Source of the DNA: a virus
Virus record (IMG/VR): IMGVR_UViG_3300042373_000015
Coordinates: 1 to 24,186 of that record
Length of the DNA: 24,186 nt
Strand: one strand, 5' to 3'
Both the position numbers and the translations under genes were made by a program. This document shows positions 1 through 24,186 of the stretch, piece after piece. A model generated the notes under the pieces. It ran no database searches. It had not been told where the DNA came from and worked only from the letters and a program-made list of their open reading frames with translations. Each line of letters starts with the position of its first letter. Position 1 is the stretch's first letter.

Positions 1-66
1 GGCATCAAAATTCGCGGTACTGGTTGCGCCACTAAAGGCGTGATGGCTCGGGGCCCAATGGCATGA
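1..66 (+). CDS. C-terminal end of a small conserved phage protein (partial)
   Basis: Frame 1 is open from the left edge to a TGA at 64-66 and encodes 21 residues. The tail contains RGTGCATKGV followed by RGPMA. Gly/Arg/Lys-rich tails of this kind, with an RGxGxATKG core, end short uncharacterised proteins encoded just upstream of the adaptor gene in many podovirus-like genomes; that is recall of the family and was not tested here. The stop overlaps the next start in an ATGA arrangement (63-66), which argues for a translated, co-transcribed gene. The start and most of the protein lie outside the window, so no function can be given. Confidence 0.7.
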   Translation, partial: GIKIRGTGCATKGVMARGPMA

Positions 67-719
67 ATTACGCTGCTCTCAGCGACGCTATTCAAGCGTA
101 CACAGAAAATACGGACGCAACTTTTATTGCAGAGATACCTGTGTTCGTTCAACAGGCTGAGCAGCGTATATACAACACCATTCAGTTCCCTTCACTGCGT
201 AAGAACGTAACGGGTTCCACCACAAACAACAACAAGTACTTGGCTTGCCCCTCGGACTTTTTGTCTGTGTATTCGCTGGCGTTGGTAGATGCTTTGGGGA
301 ACTACGAGTACTTGTTAAACAAGGATGTGAACTTCATCCGACAGGCGTATCCAAACCCCAACGACAAGGCGATACCCAAATACTACGCCCTGTTTGGTTC
401 GCAGTCCAACGACGCAAACGAGCTGACCTTCATCTTAGGCCCAACGCCGGATGCCACTTACGTGGCTGAGCTGCACTATTTCTATTATCCCGAGTCTATT
501 GTGACCGCAAGTACAACATGGCTGGGCGACAATTTTGATAGCGTATTGCTTTACGGTTCGTTGGTTGAGGCCTACACCTACATGAAGGGTGAGCAGGACA
601 TGATGGCGTTGTATAACGGCAAGTACCAAGAAGCCCTTGCACTAGCCAAACGCCTTGGTGATGGCCTCGAACGTCAGGACGCTTATCGTTCTGGTCAATA
701 CAGACAAGCGGTAACTTGA
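63..719 (+). CDS. Head-tail adaptor protein, SU10 adaptor-like
   Basis: The 218-residue product looks like the adaptor that forms a ring under the portal in SU10-type podoviruses. An N-terminal helical stretch (about 1-45, with QQAEQRIYNTIQFPSLR at about 30-46) is followed by a beta-rich core with the landmark YLACPSDFLSVYSL near 59-72 and PKYYALFG near 105-112. A C-terminal helical part contains LLYGSLVEAYTYMKGEQD and YNGKYQEAL. Length and motif order agree with the family. The start overlaps the upstream stop (ATGA), and a GGGGC run lies just before it. The next gene starts two bases after the stop, so it is the first complete gene of the structural operon seen here. The family assignment comes from motif recognition; ring formation is family knowledge. 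Confidence 0.8.
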   Translation: MNYAALSDAIQAYTENTDATFIAEIPVFVQQAEQRIYNTIQFPSLRKNVTGSTTNNNKYLACPSDFLSVYSLALVDALGNYEYLLNKDVNFIRQAYPNPNDKAIPKYYALFGSQSNDANELTFILGPTPDATYVAELHYFYYPESIVTASTTWLGDNFDSVLLYGSLVEAYTYMKGEQDMMALYNGKYQEALALAKRLGDGLERQDAYRSGQYRQAVT

Positions 720-2492: not shown

Positions 2493-3908
2493 ATGGCTTT
2501 AGTCCTCAAAGATCGCGTCAAAGAAACCACTACCACAACTGGCACGGGCACAGTAACCCTCGGGGGTGCGGCGGCAGGCTTTCAGTCATTTGTTGTCATT
2601 GGGAATGGCAATACCACGTACTACGCAATTGTGGATGCGGCAACGGGAGACTGGGAAGTAGGTATTGGCACGTACACCTTATCGGGCACCACGTTGTCCC
2701 GTACTACGGTACTGTCCTCAAGCAACAGCGGGGCGCTGGTAAATTTTTCTGCGGGGACAAAAGACGTTTTTTGTACTTACCCAGCGGAACAGGCGGTTAC
2801 GCTTAACGACGCTCAGACGTTGACCAATAAGACTTTAAACAGCCCCACACTGGTAACGCCAGCCTTGGGTACACCTGCATCGGGTGTGGTGACAAACCTG
2901 ACAGGCACAGCGTCCATCAACATTAACGGTACTGTGGGCGCTACAACAGCAAACACCGGCAAGTTTACAACCTTGACCGCAGCGGGCAACACCATCCTGA
3001 GCAACGTCAACGTGATTGGTGCAAGCTACGACAGTGTGTCTTTCTCTGTTGCAGGTGAAGAGCTCACAGCTCACGGTATATTTTTTAGCCCTGACGGATT
3101 TCGGATGTACATATCTGGAACTACTGGAGATGATGTAAACGAATATCGTTTGTCTACGGCATGGGTTGTTTCATCTGCGGTGTATTCCACTGTTTTTTCT
3201 GTTTCATCGCAAGATACAACCCCGCAAGGTTTGTATTTCCGTGCCGATGGCACAAAAATGTATGTTGCTGGCGCTGCAAATGATTCTGTGTTTCAGTACA
3301 CACTCAGCACGCCTTGGTCGGTTGCAACAGCGTCTTACGACAGCATTTCTTTTTCTTTTGCAGGACAAGAAACAACCCCTACTGGAATTTTCTTTAAGCC
3401 CAACGGTCTGTCAATGTACATTGTTGGGCAAACAAATGACACTATTTATCAGTACACATTGTCAACTGCTTGGAATGTGTCAACAGCCACGCTTTTGCAA
3501 TCGTTTTTAGTGTCAGGTCAAGAACTTACGCCCTCTGACTTATCATTTACTGGTGACGGTTCTCGGATGTTTGTTTTGGGTACAACAGGTGATGACATTA
3601 ACGTCTACAACCTGACAACGCCTTGGGACATCAGCACATCAGCATTTGTAGGCGTGTTCAGTGTTTCTGGTCAAGATACAAGTCCCGTAGGTTTATACGT
3701 TAAGCCTGACGGCACAAAGATGTATATGGTTGGTTCGGCCAACGATGCCGTATTCCAATACACAGTACCAAGCATTGACATCCAACTGACTGGCCCAACT
3801 TCTGTTGCGGCTTTGGACGTACAACAAGACTTGATTGTCTACGGCAACACTCAGGCTTATAAAATCACAGCAACCGCATATACTGGAATCAACGGAGGAA
3901 CCTTCTAA
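2493..3908 (+). CDS. Tail fibre protein with five propeller-like repeats
   Basis: The 471-residue protein is modular. Residues 1-105 (beginning MALVLKDRVKETTTTTGTG, with a WEVGIGTYT stretch) look like an N-terminal virion-attachment domain widespread in phage fibres. A linker at about 108-176 contains QTLTNKTLNSPTL and KFTTLTAAGNT. Residues 178-427 hold five tandem repeats of about 51 residues, each with a [GD]-[IL]-x-F-x-x-x-G-x-x-M-[YF] core and a Y-x-L-[ST]-T-x-W end. Such units form beta-propeller blades in other proteins, so this is probably the receptor-binding head. A short tail ends at NGGTF. The ATG follows TAAGGA, whose TAA is the upstream stop, and the stop overlaps the next ATG (TAATG). 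The repeat region is visibly richer in T-ending codons than neighbouring genes, suggesting an acquired module. Confidence 0.75.
   Translation: MALVLKDRVKETTTTTGTGTVTLGGAAAGFQSFVVIGNGNTTYYAIVDAATGDWEVGIGTYTLSGTTLSRTTVLSSSNSGALVNFSAGTKDVFCTYPAEQAVTLNDAQTLTNKTLNSPTLVTPALGTPASGVVTNLTGTASININGTVGATTANTGKFTTLTAAGNTILSNVNVIGASYDSVSFSVAGEELTAHGIFFSPDGFRMYISGTTGDDVNEYRLSTAWVVSSAVYSTVFSVSSQDTTPQGLYFRADGTKMYVAGAANDSVFQYTLSTPWSVATASYDSISFSFAGQETTPTGIFFKPNGLSMYIVGQTNDTIYQYTLSTAWNVSTATLLQSFLVSGQELTPSDLSFTGDGSRMFVLGTTGDDINVYNLTTPWDISTSAFVGVFSVSGQDTSPVGLYVKPDGTKMYMVGSANDAVFQYTVPSIDIQLTGPTSVAALDVQQDLIVYGNTQAYKITATAYTGINGGTF
3024..3773 (+). repeat. Five tandem ~153-base units encoding propeller-like blades
   Basis: The units cover residues 178-229, 230-280, 281-332, 333-383 and 384-427 of the fibre protein. 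Each includes a hydrophobic strand, a [GD]-[IL]-x-F-x-x-x-G-x-x-M-[YF] block, a G-x-[TA]-[GN]-D-x-x-x-x-Y block and a terminal T-x-W stretch. Units 1 and 4 share GTTGDD, while units 2 and 5 share a G-x-A-N-D-x-V-F-Q-Y block. Five blades is a low count for a closed propeller, so the fold could be open, closed by oligomerisation, or not a propeller. The repeat boundaries are mine. Confidence 0.8.
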
Positions 3909-10080: not shown

Positions 10081-10578
10081 ATGGATTGGCTCAAACAAAT
10101 CGCACCTACCATTGCCACAGCGATGGGTGGTCCACTGGCGGGTATGGCTGTATCGGCCATCTCTAAAGCCATCGGCGTTGACCCTGACAAAGTGGGAGAC
10201 ATGATCAGCAACAACAAGCTGTCTGCCGAGCAGATCGCACAGGTCAAGATTGCCGAGATTGAGCTTCAGAAGCAGGCGCAAGAGTTGGGCTTAAACTTTG
10301 AGAAGCTGGAAGTTGAAGACCGCAAGTCAGCACGGGAGATGCAGGCCACCACCCGCAGCCTGATGCCGCCCCTGCTTGCTGGCGCTGTGACCATTGGGTT
10401 CTTTGGCATCATGGTGATGATGTTTTTCAACCAGATCGACAGCGGTAACCCCGCAATCTTGATGATGCTGGGCAGCTTGGGGACGGCGTGGACGGGCATC
10501 ATTGCCTACTACTTCGGCTCCTCTGCTGGATCGCAGGCCAAGACCGACCTTCTTTCAAAAGCTGGAGCCGCTAAATGA
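10081..10578 (+). CDS. Holin, GTA-type three-transmembrane family
   Basis: The 165-residue product matches the GTA_holin_3TM pattern. A weakly hydrophobic Gly/Ala-rich N-terminal segment (about 9-32) is followed by a charged helical region with AEIELQKQAQELGLNFEKLE (about 58-77). The family signature DRKSAREMQ lies at about 80-88, and two strong spans follow at about 94-116 and 125-145, ending in YYFGSSAGSQAK. The protein would open the inner membrane to the endolysin encoded next. AAAGGGG upstream of the ATG is a strong SD site. The stop overlaps the endolysin start (ATGA, 10575-10578), as expected for co-timed lysis genes. Family membership is recognised from motifs; topology is inferred from hydrophobicity read by eye. 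Confidence 0.85.
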   Translation: MDWLKQIAPTIATAMGGPLAGMAVSAISKAIGVDPDKVGDMISNNKLSAEQIAQVKIAEIELQKQAQELGLNFEKLEVEDRKSAREMQATTRSLMPPLLAGAVTIGFFGIMVMMFFNQIDSGNPAILMMLGSLGTAWTGIIAYYFGSSAGSQAKTDLLSKAGAAK

Positions 10579-11165
10579 CCGAAGACCAACTCAAAGAGAT
10601 GCACATCGACCCGTCTTGGCTGGAGCCATTGACGGCAGCGTTTCAGCGTTTCGACATCAGCACTCCCGAGCGCCAAGCAGCGTTCATCGGCCAGTGCGCC
10701 CACGAGTCTGGCAACTTCAAAACTTTGCAAGAGAACTTGAACTACAGCGCCAAAGGGCTGCACGCTACTTGGCCAAGCCGCTTTGCATCAGAAGAAGCTG
10801 CGCAGCCATTCCATCGCAACCCCGAGAAGATTGCCAACAAGGTCTACTCTGGCCGGATGGGCAACACCGACGAGGGCGATGGCTGGAAGTACCGTGGCCG
10901 GGGCCTGATCCAGTTGACCGGCAAGGACAACTACCGCCTTGCCTCTGACGCCTTGGGGGTGGACTTTGTGGCCGAACCTGAGCTGGTGCTGTCCAAGGAA
11001 TACGCTGCCCTGACCGCTGCTTGGTACTGGAACAAGCGCGGCCTGAACAAGGAGGCCGATGCCAAGGACTTCACAGGGATGACAAAGAAGATCAACGGTG
11101 GGACAATCGGGCTTGCAGACAGGGTTGCGCATATCAACAGCGCCCTCAACGTCTTAACAGCTTGA
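10575..11165 (+). CDS. Endolysin, glycoside hydrolase family 19 (chitinase-like lysozyme)
   Basis: The 196-residue product is a single-domain GH19 enzyme that would cut the glycan chains of peptidoglycan. The likely general acid is Glu44 in AHESGNF, with Glu53 in LQENLNYS as the probable second carboxylate. The family block GWKYRGRGLIQLTGKDNY lies at 103-120 and ITGxxNY-like packing is followed by AWYWNKRGLN near 153-162. The C-terminal KKINGGTIGLADRV is also typical. No signal peptide is visible, so export should depend on the holin encoded just upstream. The start overlaps the holin stop and GGAG lies upstream. No cell-wall-binding domain is present. The catalytic residues are assigned by family pattern only. 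Confidence 0.9.
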   Translation: MTEDQLKEMHIDPSWLEPLTAAFQRFDISTPERQAAFIGQCAHESGNFKTLQENLNYSAKGLHATWPSRFASEEAAQPFHRNPEKIANKVYSGRMGNTDEGDGWKYRGRGLIQLTGKDNYRLASDALGVDFVAEPELVLSKEYAALTAAWYWNKRGLNKEADAKDFTGMTKKINGGTIGLADRVAHINSALNVLTA

Positions 11166-11173
11166 GGTAATTC

Positions 11174-13033
11174 ATGCCACTTTCCAAGATACTGTTCAAA
11201 CCGGGAGTCAACCGGGAAAACACCCGTTACACCACCGAAGGCGGCTGGTACGAGTGCGACAAAATCCGCTTCCGTCAAGGTAATCCCGAGAAGATCGGCG
11301 GTTGGACCCGGTTCAGCCCGGACACGTATCTTGGCGTGTGCCGCTCCTTGTGGAACTGGGTTACGCTGGGCGGGAATAATCTGATAGGCGTTGGCACGAA
11401 CATCAAGTTCTACATTAACCAAGGCGGGCAGTATTACGATGTCACCCCCCTGCGCAGCAGCCCTACCATCAACAACAACCCGTTTGTGGCCACACTTGGC
11501 TCCAGCGTCATCACCGTAACAGACACTGCGCACGGGGGCATTACCGGCGACTACGTGACTTTCAGCGGGGCCACAGGTCTTGGCGGAAACATCACAGCGG
11601 CTGTTCTTAACGCTGAGTACGTCATGACGGTGGTGGACGCCAACACGTACACAGTGAACACCGGAGTCTCTGCAATTGCTGCGGACGTTTCAGGTTCGCC
11701 GGGCGGCGGCGCTTCAGTTGTTGCGAATTATCAAGTTTCTGTTGGTCCCGAGTTTGAAGGCCCGCTTGTTGGCTGGGGCGCTGGAGGTTGGGGGCTTGGC
11801 CCGTGGGGTACAGGTGTGCCATCGGTGTCTCCACTGCGTCTTTGGAACCAGTACAACTACGGAGAAAGTCTTCTGTACGGCCCTCGGGGCGGGGGTATTT
11901 ATTACTGGGACGCAGGGACAGGCGTGGGTACAAGAGGCGTTAACCTGACCGTTACTGGTGACACCGATACACCGCTTTTTCAAAACGTTTTGATCGTGTC
12001 GGACGCTTCCCGGTTTACCTTGTGCATGGGCACCAACGACTACGGCAGCGCGACACTGGACCCTATGCTGATTCGCTGGTCTGACCAAGAAAACTTCAAC
12101 GTGTGGACCCCACAGATCACCAACCAAGCAGGTAGCCTGCGAGTGTCGCACGGCTCTGAAATTATCACGGCCATCCAGACCCGACAAGAAATTGTGGTAT
12201 TCACGGATCAGGCGCTGTACTCCTTGCAGTACCTCGGACCGCCTTACGTCTGGGGTTCTCAGTTGCTCGGGGATAACGTCTCGATTGCTGGGCCAAATGC
12301 GGTTGCGCTGGCGTCAGGCGTGGTCTACTGGATGGGTGTGGACAAGTTCTACGTGTACGAAGGCCGAGTTCAGACGCTCAACTGCGACCTGCGCCGTTAC
12401 GTGTTCAACGACTTCAACCAAGATCAAGCTGCGCAGGTTTTTGCAGGGACAAATGAAGGCTTCAACGAGGTCTGGTGGTTTTACTGCTCCGCAAACTCAA
12501 CGCAAGTTGACCGGTACATTGTGTACAACTACCTTGAAAAGATTTGGTATTACGGCAATATGAGCCGCACTGCTTGGCTGGACTCAGGGCTGCTGTCGTT
12601 CCCCTTGGCGGCGACCTATGTGAATAATCTGGTCAACCATGAAGATGGAGTAGATGACAACATTGCGGCAGCACCTGCTCCGATTGCAGCTAACATTTCG
12701 TCTTCTGAGTTTGATATTGGCGACGGCCACAACTTTGGTTTTGTGTGGCGCATTTTGCCGGATATTACCTTTGACGGTTCATCAGAAAGCCCTGTTCCGC
12801 AAGTCACTATGACGTTGCAGGGGTTATCAAACTCGGGTTCGGGTGTGCAGACATCGGCTGGGCAAGCGGTCATTAAGGGCAGCACGTACGTGGTCACGGA
12901 AGAATTTACTGGCCAGATTTACACTCGCGTGCGCGGGCGGCAGATGATCTTCAAAATTGACTCTAACCAACTTGGAACGACATGGCAGCTCGGGGCACCC
13001 CGAATAGATGTTCGTCCTGATGGACGTAGGTGA
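11174..13033 (+). CDS. Tail nozzle / DNA stabilisation protein, P22 gp10-like
   Basis: The 619-residue product begins with a conserved structural block: FKPGVNRENTRYTTEGGWYE, then CDKIRFRQGNPEKIGGW (about 8-45) and LWNWVTLGGNNLIGVGTNIK. A small beta domain (about 97-180, with VITVTDTAHGGITGDYVTFS) looks inserted. The rest is beta-rich with many Trp, Tyr and Gly residues (WGAGGWGLGPWGTG, LWNQYNYGESLLYGPRGGG, RWSDQENFNVW, IVYNYLEKIWYYG), as in the propeller-like bodies of gp10-type nozzle proteins. These proteins form the hexamer below the adaptor that closes the DNA channel. Separation from the adaptor by fibre and lysis genes is unusual in textbook phages but does not change the assignment. 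TGAGG at the previous stop is the SD site. Confidence 0.72.
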   Translation: MPLSKILFKPGVNRENTRYTTEGGWYECDKIRFRQGNPEKIGGWTRFSPDTYLGVCRSLWNWVTLGGNNLIGVGTNIKFYINQGGQYYDVTPLRSSPTINNNPFVATLGSSVITVTDTAHGGITGDYVTFSGATGLGGNITAAVLNAEYVMTVVDANTYTVNTGVSAIAADVSGSPGGGASVVANYQVSVGPEFEGPLVGWGAGGWGLGPWGTGVPSVSPLRLWNQYNYGESLLYGPRGGGIYYWDAGTGVGTRGVNLTVTGDTDTPLFQNVLIVSDASRFTLCMGTNDYGSATLDPMLIRWSDQENFNVWTPQITNQAGSLRVSHGSEIITAIQTRQEIVVFTDQALYSLQYLGPPYVWGSQLLGDNVSIAGPNAVALASGVVYWMGVDKFYVYEGRVQTLNCDLRRYVFNDFNQDQAAQVFAGTNEGFNEVWWFYCSANSTQVDRYIVYNYLEKIWYYGNMSRTAWLDSGLLSFPLAATYVNNLVNHEDGVDDNIAAAPAPIAANISSSEFDIGDGHNFGFVWRILPDITFDGSSESPVPQVTMTLQGLSNSGSGVQTSAGQAVIKGSTYVVTEEFTGQIYTRVRGRQMIFKIDSNQLGTTWQLGAPRIDVRPDGRR

Positions 13034-13696: not shown

Positions 13697-15610
13697 ATGC
13701 CAATGGCTCTTATATTTGCTGAAGCCGCCGCCGCTGAAATTGCAGCCGCTGCCGCCGCCGAAGCCGCAGCAGTCACCGCTGCCGAAATTGCCGCTGCCGA
13801 AGCCGCTTCCGTCGCCGCCGCCGAAGCCGCTAGTACTGCTGCCGCGCAAACCGCCGCCCAAGCAGCCGCCCAACAGGCCGGTACACAAGCTGGCATTATG
13901 GGAATCGAAGGGGCTACCGCAAACGCTGCGCCTCTTACAGCAGAGGCAACTCAAGCCGCTGCTATGAATTCTGGTTTCCCTACGGTTCAGGCTACCTCGG
14001 CAGCGCCAAGCGCGGGTATTCAGGGTATTCAGGGCCTTCAAGGGACTTCAGCTGAATCTCTTAACCTTGCAGCGCAACAACAAGCGGCTGCACTAGCTCC
14101 ACCTCCTGCGCCTTCTGCGCCTCTTGCGCCTATTGCGCCTCCTGCGCCGCCACCCTCCGCTCCATCGCCTATGGGCATAGACGGTCAAATTCCAGCCAAT
14201 CAATTTATCGAGCCCGGTTCAGGCGGCATAAACAGTATGGCGAATGAAATGGCCAACGCTAATCTAACCGCTAATGTCCCGCCCCCTTCCGCACTTGAAG
14301 TCGGCATGGACAAGGCTATGAAGTTCGCGGAGAAGAACCCGCTTATGGCAATGTCGGGCGCGTACATGGGCGCTAGCGCTCTAGGGCTTTTGAACCCCTC
14401 CGCCGCTACGTTCAACGATAGTAAATACAGCGGCCCACTATCTAAATATAGGTTGTCACCTGATTTTCAGCCGGGCCGTGCTAACCCCGCAGATTTTCAA
14501 TACACGCCCCGCTACGCGGAAGGCGGCGTTATGGGCATGGGCGCTATGCCGCAGCAGTCCAACGACGTTCAAGTAGGCTACAACGAAGCTCAGGCTTTAA
14601 CGCCCAACAACGGCCAGATGTATGCTAGCGGCGGGCAGATTAATCTGCAAGGCACTTTCGACGTAGGTGATGGCGGAGGGAGTAGTGGCGGGCAATTCGG
14701 TCAGGCAGGTGCCAACGGGTATCAGGCCGTAGGTAGTGGCTTTGGCGGCGGCAACATGGGCGGTATAGGCGGGGGCGGCAGTCTTGGCAGCATGGGCGGT
14801 TACGACCCTCAGTCTGTTGCGGCAAACCCTCAAGGTTTTTTGCAGCATTTGCAACAGGTGCGGCAGCATCAAGAAATGCAGCAGATGCAAAATCCGTATG
14901 CTCGAATGGGCCAATTACAAGGCATGGGTTTGCCGAGTAGGCCAAACATGGCTACGGAGGAGATGGGGATAATGAACATGAGGGGCCTGGGGTTTGACAA
15001 AGGCGGGCAAGTAGCTAGCTATGCTAAAGGCGGTAGTCTGACCGACTCTATCGAACAGTATCAAAAAATGTTGGCGGGCGATCCTATGAAAGCTCCCGCA
15101 GTGTCTCGTGATGTGGGCATCTACCGCGACGAAGACCCAGATACTCGTTATCAAGATGCGCTGACCGCTGCGCAAATTCGTCAGTCCAAGATCAATCAAC
15201 GCGCCTACGTCACCCCTCCCGCAGCTAAACGCCCAACGCCTATGGGTCAGTTGCAAATGGCTTCAGTTAAGCCTAGAAAACGAAACGATGATGACGTTGA
15301 AGCGGCGCAAGGCGGTATCATGCACTCTAGTTTGGGCGGTTACGCTGCTGGCGGAAACCCACGACTGCTGAAAGGCCCCGGCGACGGCATGTCGGACAAC
15401 ATCCCTGCAACTATTAATGGACGCCAACCTGCTCGGCTTGCTGACGGTGAGTTTGTTATCCCTGCTGATGTGGTGTCACATCTGGGTAACGGCTCCACGG
15501 AAGCTGGCGCTAAACAACTTCATGCAATGATGAACAAGATACGCAAAGCGCGTACTGGTAACTCAAAGCAAGGCAGGCAGATCAACCCCAGAAAATACCT
15601 GCCTAAATAA
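13697..15610 (+). CDS. Ala-rich virion protein, candidate internal or tail protein
   Basis: The 637-residue product is modular and of low complexity. Residues 8-61 are an Ala/Glu repeat predicted to be a long helix. Residues about 130-158 are Pro/Ala-rich. The middle is Gly- and Met-rich with the recurrent motif Y/F-[AD]-x-GG at Tyr273, Tyr309, Phe433, Tyr442 and Tyr549. The last 80 residues contain a conserved phage block: GPGDGMSDNIPATI, RQPARLADGEFVIPADVVSH, then HAMMNKIRKARTG. That C-terminal block is widespread in phage proteins of this region as far as I recall, of unknown function. AAGGAG (13684-13689) precedes the ATG at 13697; the Met at codon 3 is an alternative. It is likely ejected or part of the internal core, judging from its position before the GNAT-like and Gln-rich genes. 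Confidence 0.68.
   Translation: MPMALIFAEAAAAEIAAAAAAEAAAVTAAEIAAAEAASVAAAEAASTAAAQTAAQAAAQQAGTQAGIMGIEGATANAAPLTAEATQAAAMNSGFPTVQATSAAPSAGIQGIQGLQGTSAESLNLAAQQQAAALAPPPAPSAPLAPIAPPAPPPSAPSPMGIDGQIPANQFIEPGSGGINSMANEMANANLTANVPPPSALEVGMDKAMKFAEKNPLMAMSGAYMGASALGLLNPSAATFNDSKYSGPLSKYRLSPDFQPGRANPADFQYTPRYAEGGVMGMGAMPQQSNDVQVGYNEAQALTPNNGQMYASGGQINLQGTFDVGDGGGSSGGQFGQAGANGYQAVGSGFGGGNMGGIGGGGSLGSMGGYDPQSVAANPQGFLQHLQQVRQHQEMQQMQNPYARMGQLQGMGLPSRPNMATEEMGIMNMRGLGFDKGGQVASYAKGGSLTDSIEQYQKMLAGDPMKAPAVSRDVGIYRDEDPDTRYQDALTAAQIRQSKINQRAYVTPPAAKRPTPMGQLQMASVKPRKRNDDDVEAAQGGIMHSSLGGYAAGGNPRLLKGPGDGMSDNIPATINGRQPARLADGEFVIPADVVSHLGNGSTEAGAKQLHAMMNKIRKARTGNSKQGRQINPRKYLPK
13718..13879 (+). repeat. Ala/Glu codon repeat at the N-terminus of the 13697 protein
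   Basis: About 54 codons (residues 8-61) are mostly GCC, GCT and GCA with GAA at irregular intervals, giving units such as AAEAA. The DNA is an imperfect repeat of short GCCGCCGAA-like blocks. Glu becomes rarer and Gln commoner towards the end. The stretch should form an extended helix; it may be prone to slippage in length between relatives. Confidence 0.8.
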
Positions 15611-15612
15611 AC

Positions 15613-16020
15613 ATGCCTTTCTACCAAATTAGCCCCAATCAGATGCCAGAAGTATGGCCCGTCGCCGCTCCTCTTTTGCAAAAAGCAATTGACCTTGACC
15701 CAAATGAGATAACTATTGAACAGGTTGAGTACGCAGTGCGTACAGGGCGCACTTACTTGGTGGTGTGGGAAGAGCCGGGCGAGGGTATAACAGGCGCAGC
15801 GGCGGTGGACTTTATTGACTACCCACGCGAGAGAATTGGTCACGGCAATTTGATGGGCGGCAAAGGAATTATGCGCCCACACGTTATTGAAGAGATGTAC
15901 AAATGGATGAAGCTGCACGGGGCTACTAAAGCGCAAGTGTGGGCTAGAGGTTCCTTGGTTAACATGTACGAGAAGTTTGGGCTGGAAGTTACCCATCAAG
16001 TAATGAGGATTAAATTATGA
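15613..16020 (+). CDS. Degenerate GNAT-like protein
   Basis: The 135-residue product has the general order of an acetyltransferase fold. Strands at about 47-53 (TYLVVWE) and 60-68 (TGAAAVDFI) are followed by a GxGxLMGGKGI stretch (78-86), helix VIEEMYKWMKLHG (91-103), strand KAQVWA and a final block NMYEKFGLEVTHQVMRIKL, resembling the Y-x-x-x-G-F motif B of GNATs. The canonical Q/R-x-x-G-x-G/A pyrophosphate loop is not clear, so enzymatic activity is doubtful. Some podoviruses place an acyltransferase-like protein beside their internal virion proteins, and the position here agrees. There is no strong SD site; the start lies two bases after the previous stop. The stop overlaps the next ATG (ATGA). 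Confidence 0.6.
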   Translation: MPFYQISPNQMPEVWPVAAPLLQKAIDLDPNEITIEQVEYAVRTGRTYLVVWEEPGEGITGAAAVDFIDYPRERIGHGNLMGGKGIMRPHVIEEMYKWMKLHGATKAQVWARGSLVNMYEKFGLEVTHQVMRIKL

Positions 16021-18959
16021 TCATCGTAAGCAAATTTGATGGCTACACCAGAGACGGTATTCGTCGTCTTTACATGGGTGGCGGTGGCGGTGGCGGACAG
16101 ACAACATCGACTGTTCAGAACACAAACATCCCTGAGTACGCAAGGCCGTATGTTGAGACCATGCTGGGGGCGACCCAAGAACAGCTGTTTCAGGGCAATA
16201 GAACTCCTGTTACTACGGACCCGAACACAGGCGAGACCACGGGCGGCGATTTTAATATTACCGGGTTTAAGCCGTATCAAGCCTATGGTGGTCAATACGA
16301 CGCTCAAGGTAATCCTGTATTAGGTCCTGACGGTAAACCTATATATGACGCTGGTAAAGCCATCGCTGGGTTCCAGCCCATGCAAGAAACAGCTCAAAAA
16401 GGTATTGCTGGGCTTCAGATGCCGGGCGAGTTTGGGCAAGCTAGTGGCATCACACAAGCCGCTGCGCAGAACGCTCAGAATATGGGCTACCGGGGCGAAT
16501 ACGCGGGTAATCAATTTCAAGCGCCGGGGCAGTTTAATGCGCCGCAGCTTAACCAGTACCAGATGGGTCCGGCTGAGCGGGTAAACACAAAGTCATTTAC
16601 GGACGCGGGGACTGCCGATGCGTACATGTCGCCGTACATGCAAAAGGTTGTAGGCATGCAGCAACGCGAGGCTACTCGCGCATCCGAAATTCAGCGTAAC
16701 CAGAACCAAGCACAGGCGGTGGGCCAAGGCGCATTTGGCGGGTCTCGCCAAGCCATCATTGAGGCTGAGCGGCAGCGCAATCTGGGTACGCAGCTTGGCG
16801 ACATTCAGGCAACTGGCTCACAGGCAGCGTTCCAGCAGGCCCAGCAGCAGTTCAACGCGGAGCAAGGTATTGGCTTGCAGGGGCAGATGGCCAACCAAGG
16901 CGCGGGCTTGACCGTGGGCCAGCAAAATCTTGCCGCGCAGCTCGGCATTCAACAGCTTGGGGAACAGTCTCGTCAGTTTGGTGCAGCTCAAGGTATGACC
17001 GCTGCGCAACAACGCGCGCAATACGGCTTGGCGGCTAACCAACTGAATGCTCAGCAACAACAGTTCGGCGCTACATACGGACAGAACGCAAACGCTCAAG
17101 CGCTTGCTGCGGCCAACCAACTTGCGGGCATCGGCCAACAGGGGCTTACTGCGCAGCAGGGCATCTACGGCTTGCAGAACCAAGTGGGCGCACAACAACA
17201 AGGTCTGGAACAGCAGAAAATCAATCAGGCCATGCAGGACTACGCCAACGCGCAGCAGTACCCCCTCATGCAGTTGGGCACTATGTCTAACATGCTGCGC
17301 GGGTTGCCAATGCAGGCGGCTACGACTAACCAATATCAGGCTGCGCCTAACCAGCTTTCACAGGCTATCGGCACGATTGGCGCGGGTACTTCTATCTTCA
17401 ACGCCATGAAACCCGGCGGGGCTGCGGGCGGCTTGCCTAGCGAGTTTAAATACGCGAAGGGCGGCGGCATCATGTCTTACGACATGGGTGGTGAAGTTGA
17501 GGAACAGCTTGAAAGCATGGACGAAAAAGGTTTGGCGGCTCAAGCCAAAGAATCTTCTAGCCCGTCTATCCGCAAGATGGCGCAACGCCTGCTCCGTGAG
17601 CGTCAGATGAGCAAGCAGCCACAAGGCACAGGCCCTATGGGCGTGCAGTATCAAGCTCCGATGCCTGCTATGCGTGCTGGCGGCATCATCGCCTTTAAGA
17701 CAGGCGGCGGCGCTAATGAAGAAGGCGGCGAGGAAGAAGCCAGAATCGGCATGGAAGAGCGGCTTGCTACGCCTCCTACTATGGGCGGTATCATGGGCGC
17801 GGCTCCAGTTGCGCCAGCTGCGCCTCCTCCCCCTACGGCTGGGCAGGCAGTGCAGCGGAACGCTGCTCTTCCCGAGTTTATGAGAGCTGATTACGAAGCG
17901 GCGGAAAAGCGCGCTGCTGCGCCGCTATCTGATTTTATGGCTGAGCGTAGAACAGCGATGCAAGAGGCTGGCGTAGCGGATATGGCTGAAGGCCAGCAAA
18001 AACAACGTGCTGAGTTGATGGCTGAAAAAGCTGGTATGAAGGAGGAGAAAGACCGCCAGAAATACATGCGCTTGGCCGAGTTTTTTGCAGCTTGGGGGTC
18101 AACCCCCGGCCCAACACTTGTCGCCGGTTTGAACGCCTTGCAAAAGACCGTACCCAACATTATTTCTGACGAGAAAGAACAGAAGAAGGCGCAACGCGAG
18201 ATTAACAAATCCATCGCTGATTTGGATAACGCTACACGCCTTGAGAAGCGCGGCGAAGTCGATGCGGCTATGCAGCTCAAACTGAAGGCCGCTGAAGACA
18301 TGAAGAAGCTGAACGAGAAGTTCATTGAATATCAATCACAACGCGCGCGGGATGAAGCGCAAGCCAAGACATCTAAATACAGCGTTGATACACAGGCTGG
18401 GACATCTAGGTATGTTGCTGACACGCAGTTCCGTAGTGAGCAGCTGCGGGCTAACACTTCGCGCCTTGATCGGTTGGCCTCCCGTGCAACTGCGGACGAC
18501 AACAAAGCTTTTGGGCAGTACCAGACTGCGGTAAACCAAGAACAGCGCGTGATTGCTAAGATTATCGATCAGGCGAAGCTGCTTGAGAAAGATTACGAAA
18601 CAATCAAAACAGCTGAAACGCAAGCTGCCGCTAAAGATGGCGCGATGGACCCAAGGCTTGTCCCCGGCTATGAAGCGGCTAAAAAGAAAATTGCTGATCA
18701 AGAAGCCGTCTGGAACAAGCAAAAAGAGGCTGCCGCGAGAGATACTGAGTTGGCATATAGTCGAGTCCGTATCAAGCCAGAAGCTGCCCCTGCGGCGGCT
18801 GGGTCACCGACTCCGGCTCCGGCTGGTGGTTTAGAGACAGGGGATTTCCCCGCTCCTACAGCAGCGCATATCGCCGCGTTGAAGGCTAATCCCTCGCAGC
18901 GAGAAGCGTTTGATAAAAAATTTGGGCCCGGCGCGGCGAATGAATATTCAGGAAAATAA
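16017..18959 (+). CDS. Large Gln-rich internal (ejection) virion protein
   Basis: The 980-residue product has a short N-terminal part (SKFDGYTRDGIRRLYMGGGG) and a conserved IPEYARPYVETMLG block. A Gln/Ala-rich region follows at about 215-430, with AFGGSRQAIIEAERQRNLG at about 240 and many GLxxQQxxLxxQ-like units. The middle holds the Y-A-x-GG motifs (Tyr479 and Phe560). A long charged helical C-terminal half (about 620-915) ends in PTAAHIAALKANPSQREAFD and KKFGPGA. This arrangement is typical of large internal proteins of environmental podoviruses that may be ejected with DNA. The ATG at 16017 overlaps the previous stop and has GAGG upstream. The Met at 16074, beginning the glycine run, is an alternative start. 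No enzymatic motif is seen. Confidence 0.7.
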   Translation: MIIVSKFDGYTRDGIRRLYMGGGGGGGQTTSTVQNTNIPEYARPYVETMLGATQEQLFQGNRTPVTTDPNTGETTGGDFNITGFKPYQAYGGQYDAQGNPVLGPDGKPIYDAGKAIAGFQPMQETAQKGIAGLQMPGEFGQASGITQAAAQNAQNMGYRGEYAGNQFQAPGQFNAPQLNQYQMGPAERVNTKSFTDAGTADAYMSPYMQKVVGMQQREATRASEIQRNQNQAQAVGQGAFGGSRQAIIEAERQRNLGTQLGDIQATGSQAAFQQAQQQFNAEQGIGLQGQMANQGAGLTVGQQNLAAQLGIQQLGEQSRQFGAAQGMTAAQQRAQYGLAANQLNAQQQQFGATYGQNANAQALAAANQLAGIGQQGLTAQQGIYGLQNQVGAQQQGLEQQKINQAMQDYANAQQYPLMQLGTMSNMLRGLPMQAATTNQYQAAPNQLSQAIGTIGAGTSIFNAMKPGGAAGGLPSEFKYAKGGGIMSYDMGGEVEEQLESMDEKGLAAQAKESSSPSIRKMAQRLLRERQMSKQPQGTGPMGVQYQAPMPAMRAGGIIAFKTGGGANEEGGEEEARIGMEERLATPPTMGGIMGAAPVAPAAPPPPTAGQAVQRNAALPEFMRADYEAAEKRAAAPLSDFMAERRTAMQEAGVADMAEGQQKQRAELMAEKAGMKEEKDRQKYMRLAEFFAAWGSTPGPTLVAGLNALQKTVPNIISDEKEQKKAQREINKSIADLDNATRLEKRGEVDAAMQLKLKAAEDMKKLNEKFIEYQSQRARDEAQAKTSKYSVDTQAGTSRYVADTQFRSEQLRANTSRLDRLASRATADDNKAFGQYQTAVNQEQRVIAKIIDQAKLLEKDYETIKTAETQAAAKDGAMDPRLVPGYEAAKKKIADQEAVWNKQKEAAARDTELAYSRVRIKPEAAPAAAGSPTPAPAGGLETGDFPAPTAAHIAALKANPSQREAFDKKFGPGAANEYSGK

Positions 18960-18961
18960 AA

Positions 18962-21900
18962 ATGGCTAATTTTTTCGACCAGTTTGATACTGTTAGTGAA
19001 AAAGAAAAAGAGCCATCTGGAAACTTCTTTGATCAGTTTGACGTAAAGCCCAAAGAAGCGCCTAAAGCTGCGGCTCCTGCTCCTACAGAAGACAAGGAGA
19101 TGATCCCGCTCCTGCGGCAAGCTGCTGACGTACCGCTCAAGGTCGGTTCCGGCGTAGTAACTGGTGTCCGCATGATCGCTGACGCCTTTGGTGCGGACAG
19201 TGGCGTGGGCCAGAACTTGCGGGGCGTAGAAGACTACATCGCCGGTCTGTATAGCGCGCAGTCCAAGAAGGACAGCAAAGAGATCAGCCGCATCATGAAG
19301 GAAGCGGAAGATAAGGGCGTTCTCGAACAGGTCGTAGCTGGAGCCAAAGCGTTCTCCGTTGCGCCTGTGGATATGCTTGCCAGTGCGCTTGGTACTAGCG
19401 CCCCTGCTATTGCTGCTGGATTGATGACTACGCTTGCTAGTGCTCCTGCTTTAGTTGGTTTGGGTGTTACTAGCGCTGTAGGCGCATTGATGGGTGCGGG
19501 TACGGTCAAAGGCTCTATCTACGAAGCCACTAAACAAGCGCTTGCCGAGAACACCAAAATGTCTCCCAAGGAGATTGAAGCCCGCGCGGTTCTTGCGCAA
19601 GAGTACGGCGGCCAAAACTTGGATCAGATTTTGATGGGGGCTGCGATAGGTACGATTGGTGCTCGGACAGGTGTTGAACCGGCCCTTGCGCGGCAGCTTG
19701 CCAAAGGGATTGCGACTAAGGAAGCCACTAAAGAGGCCGTTAAACAGAACGCCATAAAAGAAACCGCCCTTGCCGCTGAGCGTGGTGTGGTCAAGCAAGG
19801 CGCTATTACAGCCGGTAAAGAGCTTGCCACTGAATTCCCCCAAGGCGCGCAAGAACAGTTGGCGCAGAACATCGCATTGCAGCGCGAAGGTCTTGATGTC
19901 CCTACGATGCGTGGCGTAGTTGGTCAAGGCACGTTGGAAGGTCTTGCTGGTCTTGGTATGGGGGCTGTGACAGGTGGGCGCGAAGCGGCTAAAGCTAGAC
20001 GCGAGTTGGCTGAAGATGCTACTAAGGGTGGCAATATCTCTGGCCAATTCACCACTGCCAAAGAAGAACAACAACGCGCTGGCGTTGGCTTCAGCCAAGA
20101 GAATGCTGACCTACTGATGCCTGCTTCCGACGCGGCAGGTGCTCCTCTTGTTGCTGGCGTTACTAAACCAGACGTTACTGAAACCGCTGCGCCGCCCGCC
20201 GAGACTAAGGCTAAGAAACCTAAGACAACAGGCGTCGCGCTAGACACTGTTGAAGCCGCCGCTGACTATGTGCAGGCGCTGGATGCTGGCACTAAAAAGC
20301 CAAACACAATGCAGGTAAATGCATTGATGAAGAATTTAGGCATTACTCCTCCCGAAAAAGGAGAAGGTTATTTAGGCCGCTCAGTTGCGGCGGTTAAAGC
20401 GCATCTTGCACAACAAGGAGCACCCGATGCTACAGGAACTAACATCGACGCAGGTGGAACAGGCGCTGGAGTGGATACACTCGCCGCTCCAGCTCAGCCC
20501 GCCGCAGGGGCTGGAGGACCTCAACCCGGTGGAATGGTATCTACTGGAGCAGTTGCTCAACCAAATCTGGGTGGAGCAGGCGCACAGCCCGCTGCACTGA
20601 ACGCTGGCACGCAACGCCTTATCACTGACGAGCTGCAAGATGGCGTTACCCCTGCGGAGCTGGTCACTAAATACGGTAGTACGCCAGAGCTTGCTACCAG
20701 CGTCGACACCTTTATTAAATCTCTACCACCTCAAGGAACTCCAAGTGGCCCTGCGACCTCTGAAACCCAGCAAACAGAAACGAAAAAACAAGAAGCACCA
20801 GCTGCCGGACCAGCTGCCGGAACAGCAGTAACGCCTAAGAAGATTGAGGACCTGTCTCCTGAAGTGCAGGCAGAAGTCGCGCGTCGTCAAGCTCTTATTG
20901 CAGAGATTGAAATGGACAATAGGGACGCCTCCAAGGAAAAACGTTTTCTCAATAGTTTTCTGGCTAAGCAGGGCGTCACAGGTACATTGTCTGCGCGCCG
21001 CGAGACTAAAAGCGTTGAAAAAGATTTCTTGGAAGAAGGCGACCTGCCGTATGCGGTGGAAGGCGAAGAAGCAACCGGCGTAGCGCTAGATCGAGAGCGC
21101 GTGCAAGCGTACAAAGAGTCTTTGACTGACGAAAAGGGCAAGGCTAGAACTATTCCTGATTACGATATCAGCGAAGGCGATCAGCAGTTGTACAACGAGA
21201 TGCGGGAAGAAATTAACCCACAGGTTAAAGCCGCGAATGAGAAACGTAACGAGCTTGTTGCTGCATATGAGGCTGCTATTGACGCATATGATCAAGCAAA
21301 AGCGGGCACGGAAGAAGATGCGGCGTTTAAAGCGGTAAATGCCGCAGAAGATGCGCTGGAAGAACACGGTCCTGTCCAGCGTGAGCTGCCTGAGTACTCA
21401 AAGAAATTTGCTGCCGACTATAAAGACGTTTACTTTGGCAACATCTCGGCTGGTCCGTTGGTCAACGGCAAGAGAACGTTTGGTAGTAGCAGGCGTGAAC
21501 ACCAAAAAGCCGCCGCAGCTTTACAAGCGTATCTACAGAAAACAGGCGGCAGTAACAAGGAGCAGCTTACTGCTGAGCAGCGTCGCGCCGTCAACCAATA
21601 CGAAGAAGGCCGCAGCGATTACAGCAAGATGTTTGGCATAGAGCTTCCAAGCTGGCCCAAATTGACCAAAGAGCAAAAAAACATCTTCTTGGAAACATTG
21701 GGGCTGACAAAAAAGTCTAAAACTGCGCCTACGCTGGCAGGCGCGCAGCAGACTATTGCTTTTAGAAAACTCGCTAATCAGCTTGCTCAAGACAACAGTC
21801 AGTTGACTGAGGGCGAGAAGCGCGAGAAGCAGAACATCATTGACCGCCAAGAGCAGGTGCGCAAAGAATCGGAAGCGCAACAGGAACGAGACCGTAAAGC

Positions 21901-24186
21901 TCGTGAAGATATTGACCGCACCAAAGGGTCTGGTAGTACCTTGCCTAGTAACGTCATCCAGATGGTCATGAACAATGACTTGCAGGGCGTTTTGAAGTAC
22001 ATGAGCGAAGTTAAGTTGGGCATTAATGCATCGCCTACTAAACGGATCATGAAGGCAGTGGCGGAATCTCTCTACGCCATGAAGCTCAACACCAAGATTG
22101 TAATTGTTGAGTCTAAAGATATTGACGGCGACCTGGCGCAGTACGATCCGGCCAAAGACATTATTTATGTGTCCCGAGAAGGTTTGAGCGTCAACACAAT
22201 CCTGCACGAGATCGTCCACGCTGGCACGGTCAAAGTCATCAACGAGTATTTGTACGGTAACAGAGGCTCCTTGTCTCAGTTGCAGTTGAACAGTATCCGC
22301 CAGTTAGAGCGGATCATGGAAGAGACTCGGGGTTCACTTGAAGCGGACCATCCTGATGCGTATAAAGACTTGTTTGAGTTTGTGTCCTATGCATTGACCA
22401 GCGATCAGTTCCAAAAAGATTTACAGGACGAAGCTGATGTAAGTCGTTTGCAGCGCTCTGTGGATAAAGTACCTCCCAAAGTGCCGTATGCATGGACTTA
22501 TAGCCCAGAAGAAATTCGCAAAAATTTGCCTGAGTCTAGATCAAAATGGTCTAAATTTAAAATGGCAATTGCGGGCATCCTTAAAGTACGTAATACCTAT
22601 TTGACAAGAAGCGGAAAATTAGACAAAGCTGCGGACATTAACTACGTGATGGAGATTGCAGCGGCGTTTGAAGACATCCTCGTCAAGCCAACTGAGCCGA
22701 TCTACCTCCCATTACTACCGGCAGTAACGCCTAAAGGCAAGAAGGGTGCGGCTCCTGCCGCAGCGCCTAAACAGGCGGAAGAGTTCCGCGAGTCTGGGCT
22801 GTATGACAAAGATGATTCATACAAGTTGAGTGAGCGTGAGAATCCGACTAAGCAAACCTCCGCGTTCTACAAGATGTTCACTACCCGTGAAGGTTGGAGA
22901 AACATCACTCGTGTAGTGCAGGACAAGAGCTATGCGTCACGTAGCCTGTTCACCAAGCTTGATAGAGCAGGCAAGATCAACCGTGACATGTCCGGCACGT
23001 TCAACAACTGGGAAGAACAAGGCGATCTGTCTACAGGCGAAGCACGTCAGTTCTTGACCGACTACTTGCAAGAGCCGTTGGATAACGTGCGTCAATCTTT
23101 CCAAGAGTGGATTAAGTTGACTGACAAGAAAACCGACGAGGCGCTGACCGAGTTCCATAAAATTGTGGAGATGTTCCACGAGCCAGAGCGCCGCATGGCT
23201 AAGTGGGTTACTTCCGTGCCTCTCAGCAAGACACAAAACCTGATGCAAAACGGCAAGCCTATTAGCGCGGCTGAACGACGCATCGCCATTCTTGGTGACC
23301 AACGCAACGGCACTCCCGGTTTGATTCACAAAGTCGAATTGACCCAACAGCAGAGGCAGGCGCTGTGGCAAGAACTATCAACCCTTGCTAAAGCGCCAAA
23401 AGATGGCGGTCACGCTGACCCAATGGGCGATAGCCCACGCATCACTGAAGAAATGCGCAAGCGTTTTGCAAAGCCGGGGTCGAAGCACAAAGGTATCGAC
23501 ATCAACATGGACGCGCCGATTTACAACGTGCTTGGTATTGAGCAGGCCACGGTAAATAAACGCATGGCGGAATATAAGGCTAAGAGTCCAGAAGAGCGCG
23601 CGGCCATTGAGAAGATTCTTGCCGAATCTAAAACGCTGAGCGACGCCACAGCGGAGCTTAACCAGATCGGTAACTACTGGTCGTCGCCTGTGTCCAATCT
23701 GGTAGGCATGTACAACTACCAATACTACATGCCGTTCAAAGGTCTGTCTAAGCACAGCAAGAGCGACGAGCTAGTCGACCCTGACAGTCACGGTAAAGAA
23801 CTGCAAGAACAAGAGCATGCAGCGGATGGCCGGTTCAAGACCTCTGACAATCCTATCTTGCAGTTGATTAACGACGCATACAGATCAGCGGGCCGCGCGG
23901 GCCGCCGTAACTACACGCAGGCGATCAAGAATGCTCTTAAGCCAAACAAATACAACCCTACGGGCACGGACGTGCTCCCCGGCGAAGTCATCAACACAAT
24001 TAAATTTGAAGAGCGCAACACCACCGACATGTCGAAGTACAAAGGTGGCGCAAACATCTTCCATTACAACGCCGATGGTTCTGTAGACATCATTCGTATC
24101 AGAGACCCAAAGATTCTGAACGCGCTGCGCTACACTTTCCGTGACGCATCCCCGTTGCTAGACCTTGCAAACTCCATAACTGGTTT
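18962..24186 (+). CDS. Giant polyvalent virion protein with metallopeptidase domain (3' end missing)
   Basis: The frame opens at ATG 18962 (AGGA upstream) and runs without a stop to the right edge, 1741 complete codons. The N-terminus carries NFFDQFD twice (3-9 and 21-27). A Gly/Ala-rich hydrophobic stretch lies at about 135-180. Residues about 400-640 are Ala/Pro/Gly-rich linker, followed by charged helices. A zincin-type metallopeptidase domain lies at about 1020-1150. It has the active-site HEIVH (His1082, Glu1083, His1086) after VSREGLSVNTIL, and an EFVSYALTS block whose Glu1139 is a good third ligand. This matches the MPTase-PolyVal type. Helical regions follow, and the segment at the edge (IRDPKILNAL, SPLLDLANSITG) looks like the start of a large polyvalent protein-associated domain. 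Such proteins are injected with phage DNA and act against host defences or proteins; the target here is unknown. Confidence 0.75.
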   Translation, partial: MANFFDQFDTVSEKEKEPSGNFFDQFDVKPKEAPKAAAPAPTEDKEMIPLLRQAADVPLKVGSGVVTGVRMIADAFGADSGVGQNLRGVEDYIAGLYSAQSKKDSKEISRIMKEAEDKGVLEQVVAGAKAFSVAPVDMLASALGTSAPAIAAGLMTTLASAPALVGLGVTSAVGALMGAGTVKGSIYEATKQALAENTKMSPKEIEARAVLAQEYGGQNLDQILMGAAIGTIGARTGVEPALARQLAKGIATKEATKEAVKQNAIKETALAAERGVVKQGAITAGKELATEFPQGAQEQLAQNIALQREGLDVPTMRGVVGQGTLEGLAGLGMGAVTGGREAAKARRELAEDATKGGNISGQFTTAKEEQQRAGVGFSQENADLLMPASDAAGAPLVAGVTKPDVTETAAPPAETKAKKPKTTGVALDTVEAAADYVQALDAGTKKPNTMQVNALMKNLGITPPEKGEGYLGRSVAAVKAHLAQQGAPDATGTNIDAGGTGAGVDTLAAPAQPAAGAGGPQPGGMVSTGAVAQPNLGGAGAQPAALNAGTQRLITDELQDGVTPAELVTKYGSTPELATSVDTFIKSLPPQGTPSGPATSETQQTETKKQEAPAAGPAAGTAVTPKKIEDLSPEVQAEVARRQALIAEIEMDNRDASKEKRFLNSFLAKQGVTGTLSARRETKSVEKDFLEEGDLPYAVEGEEATGVALDRERVQAYKESLTDEKGKARTIPDYDISEGDQQLYNEMREEINPQVKAANEKRNELVAAYEAAIDAYDQAKAGTEEDAAFKAVNAAEDALEEHGPVQRELPEYSKKFAADYKDVYFGNISAGPLVNGKRTFGSSRREHQKAAAALQAYLQKTGGSNKEQLTAEQRRAVNQYEEGRSDYSKMFGIELPSWPKLTKEQKNIFLETLGLTKKSKTAPTLAGAQQTIAFRKLANQLAQDNSQLTEGEKREKQNIIDRQEQVRKESEAQQERDRKAREDIDRTKGSGSTLPSNVIQMVMNNDLQGVLKYMSEVKLGINASPTKRIMKAVAESLYAMKLNTKIVIVESKDIDGDLAQYDPAKDIIYVSREGLSVNTILHEIVHAGTVKVINEYLYGNRGSLSQLQLNSIRQLERIMEETRGSLEADHPDAYKDLFEFVSYALTSDQFQKDLQDEADVSRLQRSVDKVPPKVPYAWTYSPEEIRKNLPESRSKWSKFKMAIAGILKVRNTYLTRSGKLDKAADINYVMEIAAAFEDILVKPTEPIYLPLLPAVTPKGKKGAAPAAAPKQAEEFRESGLYDKDDSYKLSERENPTKQTSAFYKMFTTREGWRNITRVVQDKSYASRSLFTKLDRAGKINRDMSGTFNNWEEQGDLSTGEARQFLTDYLQEPLDNVRQSFQEWIKLTDKKTDEALTEFHKIVEMFHEPERRMAKWVTSVPLSKTQNLMQNGKPISAAERRIAILGDQRNGTPGLIHKVELTQQQRQALWQELSTLAKAPKDGGHADPMGDSPRITEEMRKRFAKPGSKHKGIDINMDAPIYNVLGIEQATVNKRMAEYKAKSPEERAAIEKILAESKTLSDATAELNQIGNYWSSPVSNLVGMYNYQYYMPFKGLSKHSKSDELVDPDSHGKELQEQEHAADGRFKTSDNPILQLINDAYRSAGRAGRRNYTQAIKNALKPNKYNPTGTDVLPGEVINTIKFEERNTTDMSKYKGGANIFHYNADGSVDIIRIRDPKILNALRYTFRDASPLLDLANSITG

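Follow-up and report, generated by a model that had tools for sequence, protein, structure and literature searches.

A predicted gluzincin-like metallopeptidase domain in the giant polyvalent-type protein of an uncultured podovirus and its relatives among podophage ejection proteins

Phage polyvalent proteins with zincin-like MPTase domains, that of N4 included, have been described by Iyer et al. 2017 (PMC5512222), together with an HExxxH variant of the zincin site; LPD38 was restricted in that study to phage-type polyvalent proteins, and three options were given for the peptidases: processing of their own protein in the head, the same after entry, or action on host targets. The HExxH motif of N4 has been reported again (PMC8472413, PMC12633501), and the recombinant N4 virion RNA polymerase has been purified at full length; in its solved structure the C-terminal domain, which bears HExxH and restrains the polymerase, is still attached (PMC12633501). 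For phage PhiM1, TEP residues 268-528 have been presented as an endolysin/exotransglycosidase-like domain, and no protease or HExxH is mentioned in that paper (PMC11440229). In the Bcep22-like Burkholderia phage JC1, the DarB-like protein gp69, which has 4515 aa and LPD38, was detected in purified virions by mass spectrometry with 51 unique peptides (PMC9144972).

We have analysed a stretch of 24,186 bp (the window), which is the whole of the IMG/VR virus record IMGVR_UViG_3300042373_000015 and whose features are listed in Table 1. The giant ORF at its 3' end (18962-24184, plus strand) starts with ATG and encodes 1741 aa with no stop codon before the window edge, just as the original prediction had described it; because the window is the whole record, the ORF is truncated by the end of the contig. 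The closest full-length relative (L110) has 2380 aa, the relatives range over 2.0-2.5 thousand residues, and the alignment of L110 to the window protein reaches L110 residue 1755. By this comparison, about 600-625 residues are probably missing from the C terminus of a protein with a full length of about 2370 aa. LPD38 (PF18857) is found at the end of most full-length relatives scanned, L090, L091 and L110 among them, and LPD39 in the rest; the comparison suggests that the missing part of the window protein includes the polyvalent-protein domain LPD38. In the N-terminal module, residues 68-336 match G032 (tblastn, E 2e-30) and residues 54-174 match G041, and hydropathy analysis gave a single hydrophobic stretch at residues 147-182 (19400-19507).

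Table 1. Features of the window and the evidence on which each assignment is based.
Feature	Position	Strand	Evidence
Tail adaptor protein	63..719	+	PF24175 SU10_adaptor, E 4e-24
GH19 endolysin, lysis cassette	10575..11165	+	PF00182
Head-closure/stabilisation (hub) protein	11174..13033	+	phrog_3287, E 5e-58
GNAT-like protein, 135 aa	15613..16020	+	Position of annotated acetyltransferases in CRP-902, JC1
980-aa protein, probable second internal/ejection protein	16017..18959	+	Cassette position
Giant ORF, 1741 aa, incomplete	18962..24186	+	ORF call; full-length relatives L110, L090, L091
N-terminal module, residues 54-340	19121..19981	+	tblastn matches, hydropathy
Predicted metallopeptidase (gluzincin-like) domain, residues about 995-1175	21944..22486	+	Profiles A1, A4; AlphaFold2; Foldseek ranking
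DIIYVS edge strand, residues 1066-1071	22157..22174	+	Sequence; model strand 83-86
HEIVH, residues 1082-1086	22205..22219	+	Conservation; model helix 93-113
EFVSYALTS, residues 1139-1147	22376..22402	+	Conservation; model helix 153-162
Mostly low-confidence linker, residues 1251-1320	22712..22921	+	pLDDT
Conserved helical module, residues 1291-1741, incomplete	22832..24184	+	tblastn, alignments, AlphaFold2

No significant match to the giant protein was found in Pfam, PHROG or NCBIfam, nor was any obtained by tblastn of its full length against 50,697 phage records or with the peptidase stretch alone as a query for close relatives. A Pfam comparison, which had been proposed as a check of the zincin assignment, gave no model at E 10 or better for residues 1000-1300, and the cut-off of the Pfam family MPTase-PolyVal was not reached. 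Pfam matches to DUF3106 and LEA_5 in the C-terminal part were below the cut-offs and were taken as composition noise. Since the direct searches were empty, relatives could be reached only through the hub protein and through alignments: the hub protein (11174-13033) as a query gave 80 IMG/VR contigs, including two with a collinear giant protein (L090, 2277 residues; L091, 2447 residues), and alignments A1 (peptidase) and A2 (C-terminal region) gave 80 and 79 loci, respectively. In other contigs, the giant protein of the same slot often has one HExxH and at times extra domains, such as ART-PolyVal and DUF7178 in L092:7266-15935 and a GHKL-type ATPase domain with an HELAH site in L099:4365-12149. 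A scan of 84,980 species genomes gave two weak relatives only (L276 and L277, both MAGs), compared with more than 150 viral contigs, and the family seems to be rare or absent in integrated prophages.

The HEIVH motif, the upstream D-I-I-Y-V-S and the EFVSYALTS block are located exactly where the original prediction had placed them. HEIVH is the sole HE..H in the giant protein of the window, for which about 0.01 HExxH are expected by composition. The 72 aligned relatives all have His1082, Glu1083, His1086 and Glu1139 (72/72), and nearly all have Phe1140; the four active-site residues are again invariant in all of the 78 unique domains found by motif scans; the scan patterns for the latter included HExxH, so that the conservation of the His residues and Glu1083 is partly built in, while Glu1139 was not required. 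The possibility that the His and Glu residues vary freely, which had been named as grounds for dropping the assignment, is thus at odds with both sets. To remove the motif bias, the A2 set had been made, in which relatives were picked by their C-terminal region only; of its 79 loci, two are truncated before the peptidase region, leaving 77. One HExxH just upstream of the C-terminal region, followed by a Glu-bearing helix sequence, was found in 76 of the 77 (the regular expression for the second helix missed nine of these, in all of which the Glu was seen by eye), and the 76 include clearly divergent peptidase sequences in the same place (L208, L214, L239, L250, L251 and L254). The remaining relative (giant ORF of L267) has HESLGH, an example of the HExxxH variant, in the same slot, and this distribution shows that HEIVH is not a product of chance. 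His1082, His1086 and Glu1139 are the predicted zinc ligands and Glu1083 the predicted general base.

The AlphaFold2 model built with the 72-sequence alignment has a mean pLDDT of 84, most of the peptidase reaching about 90 or more, and a domain-only model from 43 sequences agrees with it (mean pLDDT 86.7, pTM 0.77). In model numbering (residue number minus 984), the order is helix 41-55, strands 61-64, 75-78 and 83-86, helix 93-113 with HEIVH, helix 122-142 and helix 153-162 with Glu1139. The HEIVH helix thus follows a three-stranded sheet and Glu1139 lies on the second helix after it, which agrees with the earlier expectation of a motif on an active-site helix; the order matches that of the zincin domains of polyvalent-protein peptidases (PMC5512222), apart from one extra helix between the active-site helices here. 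In a Foldseek search of PDB with the domain-only model, the best match (E 0.076, probability 0.87) was below significance, as were all of the first 12, nine of which are selecase or jannalysin (minigluzincins) and one SPRTN. These best structural look-alikes (PDB 4qhi and 4jix for selecase and jannalysin, 6mdw for SPRTN) are, unlike the window protein, small free-standing cellular proteins or domains. The same search with a 757-residue model was uninformative, while structure matches of the larger model in BFVD were large polyvalent, internal core and N4-type virion polymerase proteins, including the internal core protein of Ralstonia phage RSB3 (E 2e-3) and the virion RNA polymerase of Vibrio phage phi 1.

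Profile searches pointed specifically to podophage ejection proteins. The A1 profile, constructed from three sequences, matched 9sfn chain G, a phiKMV-type internal virion protein, in PDB with E 7e-6. With the A4 profile of 43 sequences, three of the 177,635 PDB sequences were matched below E 0.01, all of them podophage ejection proteins: 9sfn chain G residues 413-516 (phiKMV-type gp37, E 1e-11), N4 virion RNA polymerase (E 6e-5) and 8vb2 chain A residues 377-478 (PhiM1 tetrameric ejection protein gp48, with LHEAAHAKT, E 3e-4), and the next match was projannalysin (E 0.17). A profile made from IMG/VR sequences only was searched against fetched phage proteins, and the match took in the HExxH of each of the following: phiKMV gp37 (L272:3768-7781, HEAVHAAT at residue 423), the N4-like polymerases of Presley, RD-1410W1-01 and Pantoea phage G19 (E 1e-10 to 3e-16 in a small search) and a crAss-like protein. 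In PHROGs, residues 415-563 of phiKMV gp37 are linked to the virion RNA polymerase family (2.5e-17). The crAss-like protein (cr4_1, L273:7116-12527), which contains HEILHAAT, is interrupted by 18 in-frame stops when read with code 11, and this suggests stop recoding. By the residue invariance, the predicted fold and this homology together, the zincin-type core that had been proposed is well supported, and the HEIVH domain is almost certainly a zincin (gluzincin-type) metallopeptidase domain.

These proteins differ from the window protein in their other parts. In phiKMV gp37 and PhiM1 gp48, which have the same functional position, the homologous stretch contains HExxH and a downstream Glu, whereas both proteins are half as long as the window protein and are labelled endolysin-like or "with endolysin domain"; no LPD38 or C-terminal module was found in phiKMV gp37, unlike in the window group. 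From the sequence comparison, what has been termed an "endolysin-like" domain in the PhiM1 and phiKMV ejection proteins is apparently this peptidase under another name, and a limited literature search gave no paper that treats either domain as a metallopeptidase. The metallopeptidase region of N4 gp50 (residues 2130-2448, C1 in PMC12633501) is homologous to the window domain, but N4-like polymerases have an RNA polymerase domain that the window protein lacks. Identification of the window protein as a virion RNA polymerase was rejected: no polymerase domain was found, and vRNAP_dom models, which do match RD-1410W1-01, miss both the window protein and L110.

Downstream of the peptidase, pLDDT falls below 50 at residues 1251-1272 and 1297-1319, with a gap between the two stretches. 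In the helical module beyond, HEPERR (1406-1411), R1440, Y1584, Y1589 and G1623 are invariant or nearly so, and there are further conserved polar residues; the polar residues could form a second active site or an assembly surface. A profile of the module gave no match to N4-like polymerases or gp37. The LPD38 part is common to the giant protein of Vibrio phage K249, which is without HExxH. The description of residues 1290-1740 as effector-like was not borne out, since this is a conserved helical module tied to LPD38 with no recognisable effector, and only the metallopeptidase and, from the full-length relatives, LPD38 were recognised as distinct domains. Identity to the window protein changes abruptly between the two modules: L112 and L113 have 70-74% identity over the peptidase and 26-27% just past residue 1291, whereas L115, L120, L122 and L199 have 39-44% over the peptidase and 84-91% past it. 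The switch is at about residues 1230-1290 (window 22650-22830), near the predicted flexible linker. The peptidase and the C-terminal module have thus been swapped as units between relatives, with some peptidase always retained.

The gene order in the window is adaptor, tail fibres, lysis genes with the GH19 endolysin, hub, cupin-like protein, 637-aa protein, GNAT-like protein, 980-aa protein and giant protein, so that a protein of at least 1741 aa lies beside late genes, with hub, adaptor and endolysin upstream. This order, the size and the LPD38 of the relatives, together with the MPTase assignment by profile homology, support the original view that a giant protein of the polyvalent type closes a podovirus-like structural operon. 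The hub protein has 38% identity to the "stabilization protein" of Phage DSL-LC04, and no family match was found for the 135-aa GNAT-like protein in Pfam or for the 980-aa protein in Pfam and PHROG. The putative internal virion proteins at 13697-15610 and 16017-18959 both have YA(E/K)GG-type motifs, and the former has IPATINGRQPARLADGEFVIPADVVSHLG near its C terminus. A protein of the tail-fibre region (2493-3908) contains about five propeller-like repeats (GxxFKPDGxxMYIxGxxxDxVxQYTLSTPW) and has weak Pfam matches to SGL and beta-propeller. Two cultured relatives by the hub protein, Roseobacter phage CRP-902 and Phage DSL-LC04, have the hub followed by an ejection cassette in the equivalent place, that of DSL-LC04 ending in a "DNA transfer protein"; no HExxH was found in the large ejection proteins of these two phages that were checked, and the peptidase domain is therefore dispensable for some phages with this cassette. 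In JC1, the same order ends in gp69, a giant LPD38 protein as in the window group; by the published account on which this comparison is based, gp69 has helicase, methylase and transglycosylase domains and its domain table contains no metallopeptidase (PMC9144972). From synteny and the homologues, the giant protein of the window is probably a virion component that is ejected.

As the explanation for the whole locus we consider it probable that this is the largest ejection protein of an uncultured podovirus, with a gluzincin-like peptidase acting in delivery. The polyvalent-type protein of about 2370 residues would consist of an N-terminal helical and hydrophobic part, the metallopeptidase, the helical module and LPD38, with one Zn held by His1082, His1086 and Glu1139 and with Glu1083 as base. 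It would most likely be packed in the head alongside its 980-aa neighbour, probably uncleaved, and exit with the DNA, and the peptidase would probably stay inactive until it has been ejected and has refolded in the envelope or cytoplasm. The best-supported target would be the ejection machinery itself, with cuts in the protein's own linkers or in partner ejection proteins that release or remodel modules. What we infer here about packaging, ejection, zinc binding, activity and target draws on sequence, models and analogy with described phages. Since the N4 polymerase was solved intact, constitutive self-cleavage is unlikely in N4, and by analogy the peptidase, if active, is probably latent until after ejection; among the options of Iyer et al., we modestly favour self-processing after entry.

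Weighed against this, an injected effector that cuts host proteins (e.g. defence or envelope-stress proteins) early in infection is the main alternative, which we judge unlikely. Such a role was proposed for some polyvalent peptidases by Iyer et al. 2017 (PMC5512222), and the same-slot relatives L092 and L099 carry other host-acting domains, but a host-directed effector should come and go with its variable targets, yet a peptidase is present in 77 of 77 relatives. Its constant presence, even though its sequence is exchanged, favours a built-in delivery step over an optional effector, and action on itself or on partners rather than on host proteins has, in our estimate, not quite an even chance. 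A metal-bound structural element without proteolysis would fit the uncleaved state of the recombinant full-length N4 protein (PMC12633501), and we found no report of activity in the literature consulted on these proteins; however, Glu1083 is as invariant as the ligands, and a purely structural site needs no general base. This makes the structural reading rather improbable, and the domain is likely to be an active peptidase.

The lack of any lysozyme or transglycosylase domain in the giant protein and the endolysin-like label given by others to ejection proteins with homologous domains might be taken to mean that the domain is a wall- or envelope-opening endopeptidase replacing the transglycosylase of T7 gp16-type proteins. 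We hold this to be quite improbable: in phiKMV and PhiM1 the neighbouring ejection protein carries a lysozyme-like domain of its own, and HExxH gluzincins are not known to act as peptidoglycan endopeptidases. A chance HEIVH in a helical coat-like protein, which the missing Pfam, PHROG and NCBIfam matches might have allowed, is refuted by the conservation test and has, in view of the low expected number, the invariance, the predicted fold and the specific homology, a negligible probability.

The general idea of zincin-bearing polyvalent proteins dates from 2017, and the window protein joins that kind: as in the proteins of Iyer et al., a giant late-gene protein in the window group combines HExxH and a Glu in a later helix with LPD38 near the C terminus. 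It differs from the described types in that it matches no Pfam metallopeptidase model, its module 1291-1741 corresponds to no named LPD and no second enzymatic domain is recognised. What is new is the protein family itself, for which LPD38 is the only match in Pfam, PHROGs and NCBIfam, the module exchange within it, and the direct connection made to the ejectosome proteins of phiKMV type and of PhiM1, whose structures are solved. As a tentative extension, which we think more doubtful than the proposal for the window protein, a zincin might be a common built-in part of podophage ejection machines (N4-like, phiKMV-like, PhiM1-like, crAss-like and the window group), latent in the virion and switched on by refolding after ejection, when it would cleave ejection proteins or the envelope at a single defined step.

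A conserved metallopeptidase shared among podophage ejection machines bears on what their largest proteins do once inside the cell. The homology also suggests that "endolysin-like" is the wrong label for the ejection proteins of PhiM1 and phiKMV. Since several ejection machines have the peptidase and some of them are solved in PDB, a direct test is feasible, by looking for the metal site in the maps and by changing one glutamate.
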